From: an uncultured Fibrobacter sp.
GTDB taxonomy: Bacteria > Fibrobacterota > Fibrobacteria > Fibrobacterales > Fibrobacteraceae
Assembly (NCBI GenBank): GCA_946414025.1
Contig: CAMKMX010000010.1
Location: forward strand, 1-64,000
Reading direction: 5' to 3'
DNA length: 64,000 bases
The position numbers and the translations under genes were made by a program. The notes under the pieces were generated by a model, which searched no databases, was not told the origin of the DNA, and saw only the letters and a list, made by a program, of their open reading frames with translations. Of the stretch, positions 3,694 to 63,731 are shown piece by piece; position 1 is the first letter of the stretch; each line of letters begins with the position of its first letter.

Positions 3694-4014
3694 ATGATGC
3701 GGGGCTTTTTCGTAATGCTCTTTTTTGTATCGGCAGGCTTTTGCCAGCTGATGCCCAAGCGCGTACAGTCTGATTCGTTAACAGTGGAGGGGCAGACAAA
3801 GCCCCTGGTCTATGTGGACAGTTCCGGGCAAGACAAAAATAGCGCCCTAACGGGGTTGACCGCCAGCATGGATAGCCGTGAGTTTTCCAATGATTCCACT
3901 ATTGGAACCGTTATAGGTGTCGGTGCGGAGTTTGTAGGCGACATGGTGAAGGGTATGCTCTCGCCCAATTCCCCCGAAGCAGACGCCGTTGAACTGGAAC
4001 GCACCAGACGGTAA
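3694..4014 (+). CDS. Small secreted protein of unknown function
   Basis: About 106 residues with a hydrophobic N-terminus ending in AGFCQ, which looks like a signal peptide. No known domain was recognised. Possible starts cluster: TTG 3685, GTG 3691, ATG 3694 and ATG 3697. No Shine-Dalgarno sequence is visible, but TATATT (3679-3684) lies just upstream, so the message may have almost no leader. It lies 37 bp after the deacetylase and could be co-transcribed with it. The start choice is uncertain. Confidence 0.55.
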   Translation: MMRGFFVMLFFVSAGFCQLMPKRVQSDSLTVEGQTKPLVYVDSSGQDKNSALTGLTASMDSREFSNDSTIGTVIGVGAEFVGDMVKGMLSPNSPEADAVELERTRR

Positions 4015-4015
4015 C

Positions 4016-4114
4016 TAGTTCTGAGTTCGGAATTCGGAATTACGAATTAGAATAGTCGCGGCGAAGCCGCCTAACTAAACAACTCTGAACTCTGAAATCC
4101 GAAATCCGAATTAT
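4016..4114. repeat. Heptanucleotide repeat, inverted arms (locus A)
   Basis: Left arm 4020-4051 is a run of 7-bp units of the type TCGGAAT. Right arm 4079-4113 uses the roughly complementary unit (TGAAATC, CGAAATC). The arms can fold into a hairpin around a short GC-rich middle (GTCGCGGCGAAGCCGC). The right arm reaches the folD stop codon. It is closely related to loci C (39691) and F (63656). Confidence 0.75.
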
Positions 4115-4977: not shown

Positions 4978-5035
4978 TAAATAGGGGATAGGATTTAGGG
5001 ATTAGGATCTAGGGGTTAGGATTTAGGGGTTTGAG
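4978..5035. repeat. Heptanucleotide tandem repeat (locus B)
   Basis: About eight consecutive 7-bp units of the form TAGGRNT (for example TAGGATT, TAGGGGT) lie in the divergent gap between folD and the ABC transporter operon. Unlike loci A, C, D and F, no complementary arm is seen. The rest of the gap (5036-5203) is AT-rich and should hold the transporter promoter. Confidence 0.75.
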
Positions 5036-37359: not shown

Positions 37360-39690
37360 ATGATTGTTACAGTGAAAAAGCGCGACGGCCGCGAGATGCC
37401 GTTTAACATCGAGAAGATTTCTGCCGCTATCGAGAAGGCTTTCCGCGCCTCTGGTGAATTGGATGAACAGATCAAGGCTTCCCAGGACCAGCTGAATTTG
37501 TTGGGAAACGACGACGTGCTTTCTAGCACGGCCCTCCAGGTGGCGGCAAGCGCCGTTGGCCTTTTGGAAGCCGAGGGCAAGGTAAAGCCCGAAATCGAGG
37601 AAATCCAGGACGCCGTTGAAAAGGCCCTGACCGAGGGCGGTTATGCCGATACCGCCAAGAGCTACATCCTGTACCGTGCCGAGCGTACCCGCATCCGCGA
37701 AGTGAACACCCGCCTCATGCACACGCTCCGCGACATTACTTTCAGTTCCGCCAAGGAATCCGACCTCAAGCGCGAAAACGCGAACATCGACGGCGACACC
37801 GCCATGGGCACCATGCTCAAGTACGGCTCCGAATCGGCCAAGCATTTCTACACCATGATGATGCTCAAGCCCGAGCACAGCCGCGCACACTCCGAGGGCG
37901 ATATCCACATCCACGATTTGGACTTCTACTCCCTCACCATGACCTGCTGCCAGATCGACCTGAAGAAACTGTTCAAGGGCGGTTTCAACACGGGTCACGG
38001 CCACCTGCGCGAACCCAAGGATATCCGCAGCTACGCGGCTCTTGCCGCCATTGCCATACAAAGTAACCAGAACGACCAGCACGGCGGCCAGTCCATTCCC
38101 AACTTCGACTACGCCATGGCCGACGGCGTGCGCATCACCTACCGCAAGGCCTATCTCTCCAACCTGGTGAAGGCCCTGATTCTCTTTACCGGCAAGGAAG
38201 AAGAGGAAATCATGCCGGTGGTCAAGAAGCTCCACTCCGAAATGGCCGAGATGGGCATGGTGGCGACCCTCGTGCCCAACGAGAAGTTTGTGGAAGCCGA
38301 AGCTCGCGAACTTTCCAAGGTCTATGACACCGAAATCGTGATGAAGGCCCAGAAGTTTGCCGAGAAGCAGGCCTATGAAGAAACGGACAAGACAACCTTC
38401 CAGGCCATGGAAGCCTTCGTGCACAACCTGAACTCCATGCACAGCCGCGCCGGCGCCCAGACGCCGTTCTCTAGCATCAACTACGGCATGTGCACCGAGC
38501 CCGAAGCCCGCATGGTCATGCGTAACCTGCTGCTCACCACCGACGAGGGCCTGGGCGGCGGCGAGACGGCCATTTTCCCCATCCAGATTTTCCGCGTCAA
38601 GGAAGGCATCAGCCTGAATCCTGGCGACCCCAACTACGACCTGTTCAAGCTGGCCTGCAAGGTGAGCGCGAAGCGCCTGTTCCCCAACTTCAGCTTCCAG
38701 GATGCCCCTTATAACCTGCAGTACTACAAGCCGGGCCACCCCGAAACGGAAATCTCTTACATGGGTTGCCGTACCCGCGTGATTGGCAACAACTACGACC
38801 CGACCCGCGAAATCAGCTTCGGCCGTGGCAACCTGAGCTTCACCTCTATCAACCTGCCCCGCATCGCCATCAAGATGAAGTCCGTGGACCTGTTCTTCAA
38901 GGAACTGGACCGCATGCTGCAACTGGTGAGCGACCAGCTCATGGAACGCTTTGCTGTGCAGAGCCGTCGCAAGGTCAAGAACTTCCCCTTCCTCATGGGA
39001 CAGGGCGTGTGGATCGATTCCGAAAAGCTGGGCTGGGAAGATACCGTGGGCGAGGTCATCAAGCACGGCACCCTTTCCATCGGTTTCATTGGCCTTGCCG
39101 AAACCCTGGTGGCCCTTACCGGCAAGCACCACGGCGAATCCGAGGCTTCCCAGGAACTGGGCCTCAAGATTATCGGTCACATGCGTGAATTCTGCGACAA
39201 GGAATCCAAGCGCCTGGGCCTCAACTTCAGCTTGCTTGCAACACCTGCCGAAGGTCTTTCCGGTCGCTTCGTGCGTATGGACAAGAAAAAGTTCGGCATT
39301 ATCCCGGGTGTTACCGACCGCGACTACTACACCAACTCTTTCCATGTGCCGGTGTACTACAAGATTTCTGCATTCAAGAAGCTCTCGCTTGAGGCTCCGT
39401 ACCATGCGCTCACCAATGCGGGGCACATCAGCTACGTCGAACTCGATGGCGACCCGACGCAGAACCTGGACGCTTTCGAAAAGATCGTGCACCACATGGC
39501 GAAGGTGGGAATCGGCTACGGTTCCATCAACCATCCGGTGGACCGTGACCCGGTTTGCGGATTCGTGGGTGTTATCGGAGACTGCTGCCCCCGCTGCGGA
39601 CGTAGCGAAGGTCACGCCATTTCCGAGGCCAAGATCGAGGAACTGCGCAAGCTTTACCCGGGTATGCCTGCGTTCAAGGGAATTAGATAA
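37360..39690 (+). CDS. nrdD: Anaerobic ribonucleoside-triphosphate reductase, catalytic part without glycyl-radical domain
   Basis: 776 residues. An N-terminal ATP-cone (VTVKKRDGREMPFNIEKISAAIEKAF) for allosteric control is followed by the NrdD barrel (DLDFYSLTMTCCQIDLKKLF, INYGMCTEPEARMV, GCRTRVIGNN, GRGNLSFTSINLPRIA). Near the end is a zinc-type Cys cluster (PVCGF and DCCPRCG, about 731-747). The protein then stops at MPAFKGIR, with no RVTGYL-type glycyl-radical motif. That motif is on a separate ORF at 39786. The enzyme makes dNTPs without oxygen. Putative NrdR boxes lie upstream, and nrdG follows. Confidence 0.93.
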   Translation: MIVTVKKRDGREMPFNIEKISAAIEKAFRASGELDEQIKASQDQLNLLGNDDVLSSTALQVAASAVGLLEAEGKVKPEIEEIQDAVEKALTEGGYADTAKSYILYRAERTRIREVNTRLMHTLRDITFSSAKESDLKRENANIDGDTAMGTMLKYGSESAKHFYTMMMLKPEHSRAHSEGDIHIHDLDFYSLTMTCCQIDLKKLFKGGFNTGHGHLREPKDIRSYAALAAIAIQSNQNDQHGGQSIPNFDYAMADGVRITYRKAYLSNLVKALILFTGKEEEEIMPVVKKLHSEMAEMGMVATLVPNEKFVEAEARELSKVYDTEIVMKAQKFAEKQAYEETDKTTFQAMEAFVHNLNSMHSRAGAQTPFSSINYGMCTEPEARMVMRNLLLTTDEGLGGGETAIFPIQIFRVKEGISLNPGDPNYDLFKLACKVSAKRLFPNFSFQDAPYNLQYYKPGHPETEISYMGCRTRVIGNNYDPTREISFGRGNLSFTSINLPRIAIKMKSVDLFFKELDRMLQLVSDQLMERFAVQSRRKVKNFPFLMGQGVWIDSEKLGWEDTVGEVIKHGTLSIGFIGLAETLVALTGKHHGESEASQELGLKIIGHMREFCDKESKRLGLNFSLLATPAEGLSGRFVRMDKKKFGIIPGVTDRDYYTNSFHVPVYYKISAFKKLSLEAPYHALTNAGHISYVELDGDPTQNLDAFEKIVHHMAKVGIGYGSINHPVDRDPVCGFVGVIGDCCPRCGRSEGHAISEAKIEELRKLYPGMPAFKGIR

Positions 39691-39770
39691 ATTCAGATTT
39701 TAGATTTCGGAGTTCGGAATTTGATGAATGAAAATAATTCTGAAATCTGAAATCCGAAATCATAATTAAA
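39691..39770. repeat. Heptanucleotide repeat, inverted arms (locus C), between nrdD and its radical domain
   Basis: Directly after the nrdD stop codon. Left arm 39691-39725 has units such as TTTCGGA and GTTCGGA. Right arm 39735-39770 has AAATCTG and AAATCCG. The arms are roughly complementary. It is the same subfamily as loci A and F. AGGAGG and the next ATG follow. Confidence 0.75.
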
Positions 39771-49297: not shown

Positions 49298-49314
49298 CGA
49301 ATAAATCCCGAAAA

Positions 49315-49472
49315 CAGTAATCAGTCATCAGTTATGAGTTTTCAGTTATAGAAGAAGTACCTCGCACCTCGAGCCTCGAACCTCACCACTCACAACTCAC
49401 CACTCACAACTCATAACTCATAACTCATAACTCACAACTCATAACTCACAACTCATAACTCATAACTAATTT
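49315..49472. repeat. Heptanucleotide repeat, inverted arms (locus D, longest)
   Basis: Left arm: five 7-bp units of CAGTTAT type (49315-49349). Right arm: sixteen units in perfect register from 49361, starting CTCGCAC and becoming CTCATAA or CTCACAA. The right unit is nearly the reverse complement of the left. The array fills the divergent gap between the small membrane protein and hemW. Confidence 0.85.
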
Positions 49473-49518
49473 ACATTTTTTTCCCCCGTGGGCAACAACT
49501 ATAATGTATTTTTTAGAA

Positions 49519-53597: not shown

Positions 53598-56500
53598 ATG
53601 AAAAAGATGGCAAGAAACTTGACAATGGCGATTCTTTCGGCAGTGACGCTTGCACTTGCCGGAGTCGCAACTCCGTCGGGAGCTCCGGAAAACCCGGCGA
53701 CAGGCATCTGGATTCAGCAGATTGGTGAAATCGTGGAACAGCCTTCCACGAACGCTACTCTTTATTATACCAAATATATTGGCGATGATCGCGTCAAGAG
53801 TATCGACTACTTCTATGATGGACTGGGATACCTGAGACTGTTGAACAAGAAGGATCTATGCCATTCGAACGGAGCCGATGGCATTATGCATCATCCTGAT
53901 GGAGATTTGATTGTAGCTGGCCAGGGAGCCAGGCTCCATAAGGTAAAAAAGAATAGCGGAAGCACCAATGCCAACACCTGTGTGGCAAAGACCTCCCCTG
54001 CGAACTACAAGACGGAAAATTCGGGAACGGGAAGTACACAGGGCTACTGGCACGTGATGGTGGACCCGAACCACAAGTTTGTTTGGGCCGACGGTATGCC
54101 GGGGCCCCTGGTTCGCTATGCTTTGGATAACAAGAATGACAATGGTTTGTCCAATGTGGGTTATCAGGTGGAACTGAGGACGCCCGCCAAGGAACCCTAC
54201 AAGAGCCTGCCGGACCGCAACAAGAATATTAAGCAGGTTACTACCGTGATATGGGACGGCGAAGGCAATGCCTTTTATACCTATTCAAACTATGCAGGCG
54301 GCGGATGTGAAACGGACCTGAATGGTGTTGCTTGTAGCGAATCCCTGAAAAAACAGTGGAGGGCGGGCTCCCACTTCGGTTATTTTACGGATACTACATG
54401 GAAAAAAATCAACAGTGCCGCAGATTCGGCGAAATACTTGGGGCACGTAGGGGATTCCGTGGTCATTGGCCTTGGGAAAATAACCCTTATTGATTCTCTG
54501 GAAGGAGCCCATGGCGGAACGTACGACCCCTATTCAAACACCATCTTTATCTTTGGCGGTTCTAAAATTGTGCAGATTGAACCCTACAGGGAAGGAGGCC
54601 AGATGAAGGCTAGGGTGCTTGCCGAAATTAACCTGCGCACCTTCTTTTTCCCGGAAGACACGACCCACCTTTCTGGTCCCCGTACTCCCTCCTGCAGGCA
54701 GAAAGCCGACCCTACGACAGGTGAATGGGGCAATTCCGGTCAATCCGGCTATTGCGATGGTGGTACAAACAGAAATGGGGCCACTCCCACGGTGGGTTGG
54801 CGCCTGGACCAGGGAACGGTCGATGGTCACGGCCACTTGTTTGTGGCTAGTAACACTGGACATGTGATTTTCATAGACTATGCGGCAAATCCGCAACGTC
54901 TTATCGATAACAATGTGCTTGCCCATATGCAGTGGATAGATAACTTCCTAGACGATTTGGCTCCTTTGGACAAAATTAAAATCGCCCGTTCTAGCGCAAG
55001 TACCATTGGCGATGTTTCTTCAAGTAGTTGGGAAAGACTCAGTTCACAAGAAGAATGGAATGAATCTTCTAGCAGTAAACAGTCGTCTAGCAGTCAGGGT
55101 TCTTCTTCTAACAGTGAAGGGTCGTCCGGTAGTGAGGATTCTTCTAGTAGCACGGATTCTTCGGATAGCAACGATTCTTCTTCCGGCAGCGAAGGATCTT
55201 CTGGTAGTGGGGACTCTTCTAGTAGCACGGGTTCTTCGGATAGCAATGATTCTTCTTCCGGCAGCGAAGGATCTTCTGGTAGTGGGGACTCTTCTAGTAG
55301 CACAGGTTCTTCGGATAGTAATGGTTCTTCTTCCAACAGCGGCGGCTCCTCTGGCAGCACGGGCTCTTCTGGCAGCAACGGCTCCAGCAGCAGCCAGGGC
55401 GGTGGTGGAGAACTGTTCAGCAGTTCTTCCAGCAGTGACGAAGGCAGTGGCGGAGGAATTCTGTTTAGCAGCAGTACTGGAAACTACAGCCCCAATGGTG
55501 GCGGTGAGGATTTCGGGTATAGCTCAGCTGGCGGTGGATATGTCAACCCGTCTTGGGACGATTATGACAAGGGCGATTCTGTAGTCCAGAATGCGGGTGT
55601 TCTGGTGCCTGCCGACGACAAGAAGCCCGGTGACCCCGGTACGGTGACTATCGGTGAGAATGTGTACTATGTGGACAACAACCCCACGGATATCTCCTTG
55701 GACTTCCGTCAGAACGCCAATATCGATTCGGCCAAGGTCGGAGATGTGGTGGCTATAACACTGAGTGCGGACAAGGTGAAGGAATACTTCGGTGACCATG
55801 TGGATTCCCTTACGTTCACCACTCCGTCGGGACTTATCCTGATAGACCCCAACAACCCGGCTCCGGGCGATTCCATCAAGGTCAATGCCGACGGCAGCGT
55901 CACGATTTATGTGACCGCCTATGACCCCGTACGCAATGGAGAAATCTACATCACCAACGAAGTAGGTCAGCTTGTAGTGATAGACAATATCAACTTCTTT
56001 GCGGTGGTTCCCGAAGGCAAGATTGCTCTAATCAAGGACTCCGGCGAGCTAGACGGCCAGCTGGATTACGTGGAAATCCTGTTACAGGATACGTTGTCCA
56101 AATTTGTAGATGTGGTGTCCGTTTCCCTGGTGGTCAACGGTGTGACCATGAATCCGGCGACGGTACCGACCCTCAACGGAGAACGGAACAGGATTATCCT
56201 GAACGACGTTTCCGACCTGGTGTTCCCCGATGAAATCGACCAGAGCTCCTATGCCCAGATTGTCTATAAGGACAAGCAGAACGGGGCCACCTACGTGCGT
56301 CAGGTACCCCTGGTGGAACTGGGAACCAATATCATCAAGGCGGCACACGCCATTAGGGATACTACCAAGGGTGGCCTGGACTCTTTGTTTGTGGAGTTCA
56401 ATGTTGATATTATTCCCATTGATTTGAGCTATCCAGAGATGCTGATTGCCATGAAGCAAAAGGGCAAGGAAGTGTTCTTTGGACTTGGCCAGGTTTCCAA

Positions 56501-58417: not shown

Positions 58418-59635
58418 ATGAACCTGATTCGCTATTCTTTTGGTCTTGCTGTAGGCGCCGTTTTGGTCGCATGCGGTGGCAATAACCCGCAGCCGGTGGT
58501 GGAACCCGCCGAGCCTGTAGCCGCTCCTGCGCCTCAGGTTTCCCTGGACAGCGCCGTGGACCGCTACAGCTATGCTTTGGGTATGGACTTGGGGAAGGCT
58601 ATCGCCAATATCAATGTTCCTGTCAAGATGGACGTGCTGATGCTTGCCCTCCAAGACGAAGTGGACCCTGCCCGTAAGGTTCTGCTGTCGGATTCCGCTT
58701 CGGAATCTGCCCTGCAAGATCTGCTGCTCCGCATGCAGAAGCAGAAAGAGGACGACGAGAAGGCTGCCGCCGCCAAGGCTCTGGAAGACCAGGCTGCATT
58801 CCTCGCCAAGAACGTTCTGGATTCTACGGTAAAGGTGACGCCCAAGGGTGTGCAGTACCGTGTGCTCAAGGCCGGTACGGGCATTTCTCCCAAGGTGACG
58901 GACAAGGTCCAGGTGCATTACATCGGGGCTTTGTTAGACGGCACACAGTTTGACAACAGCGTCAAGCGTGGTGAACCTCTGGAGTTCCCCGTAGGCGCGG
59001 TCATCGAAGGTTGGCAGGATTTGCTCCAGGTCATGAAAGAAGGGGACAAGGTGAAGGCCTGGATTCCCAGCGCCCTGGCCTATGGCGAAGCTGGTGTTCC
59101 GCCTACCATTCCGGGCAATGCACTCCTGATTTTTGAAGTGGAACTGTTGAAGGTCTATGCCGAAGTTCCGCCTGTGGATTCTACGGCTGTTCCGGCTGAC
59201 AGCGCCGCAGCGGCTCCTGCTGATTCTGCTGCATCGGCAGCCGCAGCTCCTGCTGTAGCACCAGCAGACACGACGAAGGCTGCGCCTTCTAAGCCTGCCG
59301 CCGCTCCCGCTGCTGCTCCTGCGGACAGCGCCAAGGCAGCCCCCGCCGCAGCTCCTGCTGCTAAGGCCGAAGCCAAGCCTGCTGCCGCCGCTCCCGCTGC
59401 TGCTCCTGCGGACACGACAAAAACTGCCCCCGCTGCAAAACCTGCTGCTGCACCTGCCGATACAGCAAAGGCTGCTCCAGCTAAGCCTGCTGCAGAACCG
59501 GCTAAATCTGTTGCTCCTGCCGCCAAGCCTGCTGCTCCTGCCGCGAAGGCAGCTCCTGCTGCAAAACCGGCCGCCGAGGCAAAACCCGCAGCAGCTCCTG
59601 CAAAGCCTGCCGCCAAACCGGCTGCCAAGCAATAG
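58418..59635 (+). CDS. FKBP-type peptidyl-prolyl isomerase lipoprotein with long Ala/Pro tail
   Basis: 405 residues from the ATG after AAAAGGAG. Lipoprotein signal with lipobox VLVAC. The FKBP N-terminal dimerisation domain (about 45-140) has RYSYALGMDLGKAI and a helical Lys/Glu/Ala stretch. The FKBP domain (about 145-245) has VQVHYIGALLDGTQFDNS, GVIEGWQ-like VIEGWQDLLQVMKEGD and IPSALAYGEAG. The last 155 residues are almost only Ala, Pro, Lys, Asp and Ser (APAAAPADSAKAAPAA). It should be an envelope folding helper, with the tail perhaps reaching across the periplasm or peptidoglycan. Confidence 0.9.
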   Translation: MNLIRYSFGLAVGAVLVACGGNNPQPVVEPAEPVAAPAPQVSLDSAVDRYSYALGMDLGKAIANINVPVKMDVLMLALQDEVDPARKVLLSDSASESALQDLLLRMQKQKEDDEKAAAAKALEDQAAFLAKNVLDSTVKVTPKGVQYRVLKAGTGISPKVTDKVQVHYIGALLDGTQFDNSVKRGEPLEFPVGAVIEGWQDLLQVMKEGDKVKAWIPSALAYGEAGVPPTIPGNALLIFEVELLKVYAEVPPVDSTAVPADSAAAAPADSAASAAAAPAVAPADTTKAAPSKPAAAPAAAPADSAKAAPAAAPAAKAEAKPAAAAPAAAPADTTKTAPAAKPAAAPADTAKAAPAKPAAEPAKSVAPAAKPAAPAAKAAPAAKPAAEAKPAAAPAKPAAKPAAKQ

Positions 59636-62377: not shown

Positions 62378-62420
62378 CCAACCACGGCCTTACGGCCTAA
62401 CCACTAACCACGGCCTACTA
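62378..62420. repeat. Short heptad-like repeat (locus E)
   Basis: Units ACGGCCT and AACCACT/AACCACG recur at 7-8 bp spacing in the leader of glycogen synthase. It is less regular than loci A-D and F. A TATAAT (62347-62352) lies upstream and could be the -10 box. Confidence 0.5.
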
Positions 62421-63655: not shown

Positions 63656-63731
63656 CAGTTCGGATTTCTGAGTTCGGAATTCCGAATTAATTTTAATTCT
63701 GAAATCCAAAATCTGAATTCTGAATTTTCTC
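63656..63731. repeat. Heptanucleotide repeat, inverted arms (locus F)
   Basis: Left arm has GTTCGGA, TTTCTGA and ATTCCGA units. Right arm from about 63694 has AATTCTG, AAATCCA and AAATCTG. It is the same subfamily as loci A and C. The right arm runs into the coding end of the minus-strand DsbD-like gene. Confidence 0.75.

Follow-up and report, generated by a model that had tools for sequence, protein, structure and literature searches.

The window, by which we mean the whole 64-kb stretch analysed here, comes from a 2.52-Mb, 82%-complete genome of the genus Fibrobacter and carries heptanucleotide (heptad) repeats in spacers beside genes that include folD and nrdD. Its NrdD is 93% identical to that of the genome holding L148 (labelled Fibrobacter succinogenes RUG10152) and 92% identical to that of another genome of the same genus. 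Arms of the arrays were typed G or C by which of these bases exceeds the other on the top strand. The window has the following features:

4014 to 4053, plus strand: locus A left arm, G-strand, TTCGGAR-type heptads
4054 to 4077, no strand: locus A core, hairpin GCGGC-GAA-GCCGC, common to L045:8914-8944
4078 to 4114, minus strand: locus A right arm, C-strand on top
4982 to 5031, plus strand: locus B, single arm of TAGGRTY/TAGGGGT-type heptads, upstream of folD (minus strand)
39690 to 39723, plus strand: locus C left arm, G-strand, immediately 3' of the nrdD stop codon
39733 to 39769, minus strand: locus C right arm, C-strand on top, before the ribosome-binding site of the next gene
49308 to 49349, plus strand: locus D left arm, CAGTTAT/GAGTTTT heptads, equal in length in three sister species
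49356 to 49473, minus strand: locus D right arm, about 16 AACTCAY heptads, inner ones ACCTCGN, copy number varying among sister species
62378 to 62413, minus strand: locus E, about two to three ACTAACC-type units, alone not above chance
63656 to 63688, plus strand: locus F left arm, TTCGGAR-type heptads
63698 to 63729, minus strand: locus F right arm; the whole element is swapped for a GAGTTAT-type element in G149 and G017

Locus D has the structure described in the first-pass annotation, a five-heptad left arm (49315-49349) followed, after a short gap, by about 16 in-register heptads of near-complementary type (49359-49472). That annotation had placed arrays at six loci, of which A, C and D stand clearly above local shuffles (0/500 for A and D, p = 0.002 for C) and B and F do so marginally (p = 0.016-0.04 and 0.05, respectively), but E (62378) does not (p about 0.1). 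The loci it called similar do consist of heptads; A, C and F, however, are not single arrays but pairs of opposed arms flanking a short core. For loci A and C, none of 200 shuffles folds as well as the native sequence (z of -2.7 and -2.9). The sole Rfam match in the window is a tRNA that lies at none of the arrays, and a known RNA family was therefore rejected as their identity. In-frame repeats of 75/39/18 bp within a large ORF (55065-55385) and of 42/21 bp (59295-59562) are also present, with codons read as Ser-rich and Ala/Pro-rich linkers.

Period, placement and unit grammar

Across 464 kb of the host genome (the window plus 400 kb) there are 35 period-7 arrays compared to 0, 0 and 1 for periods 5, 6 and 8, and third-order Markov shuffles of the same 464 kb yielded none at the same threshold. 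Period 7 is therefore commoner than 6 or 8, the comparison on which the first-pass annotation had staked its proposal. The arrays are mainly intergenic, with 117 of 155 segment centres outside the ORFs predicted by a simple ORF caller, in DNA of which only about 9% is non-coding.

The G-rich strand of the arrays is poor in C (7% of bases), and its units follow one phase-aligned profile, roughly YKAGKNN, i.e., about (T/C)(T/G)AG(G/T)NN, which scores 68 compared to 39 +/- 1.7 for column-permuted controls. GAGTTRT, TAGGGGY/TAGGATY, TTCGGAR, GTGTART, AGACGAG and TAGTTAC can all be read as variants of this grammar. The main units here are GAGTTRT, TAGGRTY and TTCGGAR, G-tracts occurring only in TAGGGGT runs, and neighbouring heptads within a run differ by an excess of transitions (0.45 vs 0.32 predicted from composition). 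Units do differ between loci, as had been noted from the window, and nonetheless share this grammar. The suggestion that length matters more than sequence is thus only half right: period 7 is specific, but C is scarce on one strand of the units, they have a grammar in common, and a GAGTTAT array recurs across phyla. The gene-proximal heptad of GAGTTRT arms is often TAGTAAT, giving TAGTAATGAG (e.g., L065:17809, L034:8625 and L061:14832).

Arm polarity relative to genes

Neighbouring opposite arms at most 200 bp apart were counted as pairs. In 1.26 Mb of the host genome, which is half of the genome, all 23 opposed pairs run G-then-C and none C-then-G, and a keto/amino definition of the arms gave the same polarity. 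The inverted arms for which a copying origin had been suggested are thus systematic, with the G-strand on the left and the C-strand on the right. Among 80 loci from other organisms, which were chosen through an exact search with one unit sequence, (GAGTTAT), and come mostly from Bacteroidota and Cyanobacteria with some from Elusimicrobia, Ignavibacteria, Marinimicrobia and others, 44 of the 45 opposed pairs show the same order; pairs without the search seed are G-then-C in 14 cases and reversed in 1. The lone exception, L122, has an AATTCAC/GTGAATT-type unit. An exact 32-base (GAGTTAT) array is found in Cyanobacteria, Bacteroidota, Elusimicrobia, Ignavibacteria and others.

Single arms are likewise oriented: the 5' side of the G-strand lies a median of 4.5 bp from the nearest predicted ORF and the other side 61.5 bp (48:16). 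Arrays occupy spacers of at least 60 bp between convergent (22/103), tandem (53/260) and divergent (11/103) ORFs. The rule that the G-strand has its start beside a gene and extends in the direction leading away from that gene fits the published Xanthomonas and Beggiatoaceae data as well.

Long near-perfect inverted repeats lie exactly between both heptad arms at three Bacteroidota loci (L102, L105 and L161). A MAG contig labelled Klebsiella pneumoniae (L165) carries many Bacteroidota-type heptad arrays and is probably mis-binned or mislabelled. Phage carriage of (GAGTTAT) arrays is rare, since only 11 stretches among 2.9 million viral contigs contain a 25-base match. Plasmid pn1 of Nostoc sp. 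UHCC 0926 (L347-L351, 250 kb sampled), intended as an unbiased cyanobacterial polarity sample, has no excess of period 7; arrays are almost absent from it, so that it is uninformative on polarity and was dropped. Its lack of a period-7 excess agrees with published work in which plasmids of Xanthomonas and Nostoc were free of heptads.

Array turnover among sister species

GAGTTRT triplets occur in 17 of 151 genomes of the phylum, every one of them in the genus Fibrobacter, and a few genomes contain many. Three species, which are about 91% identical in the region around the site, carry array D with an unchanged left arm and a differing number of right-arm copies; it is missing in five other species, which have about 20 bp in its place. 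Related species thus do carry such arrays and vary in heptad copy number, a comparison that the first-pass annotation had proposed.

Array sites were compared among four sister species. Most of them hardly differ, differ by indels or cannot be aligned, and their flanks are mostly >90% identical. Many of the unalignable partner sites are complete new heptad elements, again composed of a G-arm and then a C-arm. At one gene pair, five species carry three unit families: GAGTTGT in the host genome, GAGGTAT in G017 and G149, and GTGTGAT-like units in G105 and G155. Locus F is of the TTCGGAR type in the host genome and in G121, the GAGTTAT-type element of G149 and G017 taking its place. Where the host genome has an array, the sister spacer also has one in 14/18, 15/20 and 20/21 cases, compared to 1/39, 2/36 and 2/44 where the host genome has none (Fisher p <2e-7 in each of the three comparisons, the four sister genomes not being independent samples). 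The array site therefore persists while its sequence is exchanged. Metagenome assemblies may collapse or mis-join repeats; such errors would nevertheless hardly account for replacement where the flanks are single-copy and, at several loci, each state is shared by two species. A spacer with an array in G149 (L305:7543-7800) and in the host genome (L034, near 8150) also contains a parS-like palindrome, TGTTTCACGTGAAAC, and G149 and G017 have an extra insert directly beside it that the host genome lacks.

Possible origins and relation to known heptads

The anatomy of the arrays suggests a process that acts at both gene-side ends, with inward 3' ends and growth of a C-poor strand. Outward growth of the C-strand from the core would fit the polarity, taken by itself, just as well; we prefer inward growth because of the gene-edge starts and the replacement that reaches up to the flanks. 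We therefore hypothesise, tentatively and well short of conviction, that the arrays are products of recurring, lineage-specific DNA synthesis that rewrites intergenic spacers by inward 3' growth. The observations to be accommodated are period 7, the C-poor G-strand, the facing arms, the gene-edge starts, whole-array replacement and copy-number change. In such a cycle, a double-strand break or a stalled fork would open a spacer, which would then be eroded as far as the gene edges, selection preventing further loss. Two 3' ends on opposite strands would then grow inward via repeated 7-nt slippage or realignment synthesis, favouring a C-poor strand, before being joined, in many cases around a hairpin or REP-like piece. 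The outcome would be a G-arm, core and C-arm irrespective of gene orientation, and because the array would be unstable the cycle could repeat with a different unit.

Inward growth is favoured by the polarity (23:0 in the host genome, 44:1 elsewhere and 14:1 in seedless pairs), the gene-edge starts (48:16), wholesale replacement between flanks mostly >90% identical, site persistence and the lack of consistent target duplication at empty sites, and the published Xanthomonas and Beggiatoaceae repeats obey the same rule. Against it, the break, the polymerase and the joining are all postulated steps, the candidate genes do not track heptad richness and the genus has no Ku. Shared core and arms at separate sites require copying between sites as well, and the arms of compact elements are modestly more alike than expected by chance, a likeness that is not foreseen if each end grows independently. 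Arms of long elements show no such likeness, and direct copying of the left arm into the right was rejected on these grounds.

The main rival, which we regard as fairly unlikely, is ordinary slippage of the polymerase, with 7 nt as the favoured step (Mrazek 2007, cited in PMC4679880 and PMC4692102), beside pre-existing inverted repeats. Since both nascent strands nearing a hairpin would slip, both arms would expand with the same strand identity, and replacement would amount to deletion followed by re-expansion. Such slippage needs no special enzyme and agrees with the whole-heptad copy-number changes at locus D, the hairpin cores between many arms and the same-family arms of compact elements. 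Single arms, however, are not clearly beside hairpins (p = 0.03, no better than random 60-mers), and this association was set aside as weak. Moreover, few sites lie between near-identity and failure to align, and neither the C-poor strand nor the absence of arrays from most of the genus follows from slippage. Slippage had been among the origins proposed at first pass, and in its plain form it accounts on its own for neither the invariant polarity nor the exchange of whole arrays.

Some elements have counterparts at other sites of the host genome, 77-88% identical in core and arms but set in unrelated flanks, and because of this sharing, copying between sites contributes. The same matches speak for small MITE- or REP-like mobile element families with heptad arms that insert into spacers and differ between sisters, and a symmetric element would retain the G-then-C order in either insertion direction. 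Such families are nonetheless an unlikely source of the arrays. Comparison of empty with filled sites revealed no consistent target duplication, and termini differ with no fixed terminal sequence found in common to the families, so that the elements lack the fixed terminal repeats and target-site duplication of the MITE/DDE type. Many arrays are single arms, and insertion is not free, since spacers without an array in the host genome rarely have one in a sister. A selected regulatory role, as terminator or mRNA-end hairpins, G-quadruplexes or protein-binding sites, would account for the position of arrays at gene edges and for the folding of loci A and C, and related repeats have been published as transcribed and quadruplex-forming (PMC4692102). 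We consider this role very unlikely, as arrays lie between convergent, tandem and divergent ORFs alike, both unit and core differ through exchange between sister species at the same gene pair, and a hairpin forms from either arm order, which leaves the polarity unexplained.

Among candidate enzymes, the copying enzyme that had been suggested for the inverted arms is unlikely to be a reverse transcriptase of the ordinary type: no RVT_1 domain was found in the seven most heptad-rich Fibrobacter genomes, one of which is 99% complete, and a retron, DRT, DGR or group II enzyme was accordingly rejected as the maker. Y1 transposase does not track heptad richness, being absent from the four rich assemblies G000, G149, G121 and G140 (80-84% complete) and broken in G017, which argues against a REP transposase and against mobile elements of this kind. 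Ku-dependent end joining was rejected, no Ku gene being present in 26 Fibrobacter genomes, and DinB-type polymerase, SbcD and MutS1 are near-universal in the genus and fail to discriminate rich from poor genomes.

The STRR heptads of Calothrix and other cyanobacteria (cited in PMC4692102) are intergenic, with period 7 as here and several units per genome. They are described as repeats only, and polarity and turnover do not feature in the literature consulted. The knowledge of short heptad repeats in cyanobacteria to which the first-pass annotation appealed is borne out, and published examples extend to Xanthomonas and Beggiatoaceae with compatible polarity. The GGGAATC and GGGGA(C/T)T heptamers of Xanthomonas and Nostoc are intergenic, have a G-rich strand and are not on plasmids (Rehm 2015, PMC4692102); the Xanthomonas repeats lie a mean of 28 nt from the ORF on the 5' side vs 160 nt on the other and form convergent pairs. 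Period 7, the G-rich strand, intergenic placement, convergent pairs and a 5' side nearest the ORF all recur here (23:0 for pairs, 48:16 for single arms), whereas the Fibrobacter units are not of the quadruplex-capable GGGNATC form, and a single unit family mostly at the same site in two Xanthomonas species contrasts with many families exchanged between sisters. TAACTGA direct repeats, described from Beggiatoaceae, Cyanobacteria and Bacteroidetes, show 7-nt indels between strains, and for the most part those of Beggiatoaceae stop a short way upstream of a start codon (MacGregor 2015, PMC4679880). TAACTGA is the complement of the CAGTTAT unit seen here and has the same polarity relative to genes, but those repeats were read as translational control and comprise one conserved unit, nearly all direct and unpaired, rather than paired arms of many units.

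Heptameric repeats are thus not a new kind, being already known in several phyla. A literature search covering mostly freely available published papers revealed no prior description of Fibrobacter heptads, as the first-pass annotation had supposed, and no paper joining the Xanthomonas and Beggiatoaceae polarity observations. Within that literature, the polarity rule across families and phyla, the shared grammar and the wholesale replacement at persistent sites look new. Together they hint at one DNA-writing process common to distant bacterial phyla. A stronger form, which we think improbable and advance as speculation, would be a bacterial DNA-end-writing activity that adds C-poor heptads to 3' ends in intergenic breaks, patchy in Fibrobacterota, Bacteroidota, Cyanobacteria and other phyla, as the common cause of STRR, GGGAATC and TAACTGA repeats. 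Such an activity would bear a loose resemblance to the addition of telomere repeats, except that its unit would be degenerate and no reverse transcriptase would take part. The dominance of heptamers in many bacterial microsatellite sets has been an open question since at least 2007, and a polarity rule across unit families and phyla, together with array turnover between nearly identical flanks, makes it testable through close-strain comparison and through genes that separate heptad-rich from heptad-poor species.

REP/BIME systems with TnpA_REP offer a further likeness in the REP-like hairpins between the arms of several long elements, but heptad arms are not part of REPs, many elements here lack such a core and Y1 transposase does not follow richness. 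The hairpins consist of GTCATCCTCGC...GCGAGGATGAC pairs (e.g., L050:15370-15460 and L056:770-850), in an assembly without a detected Y1 transposase.
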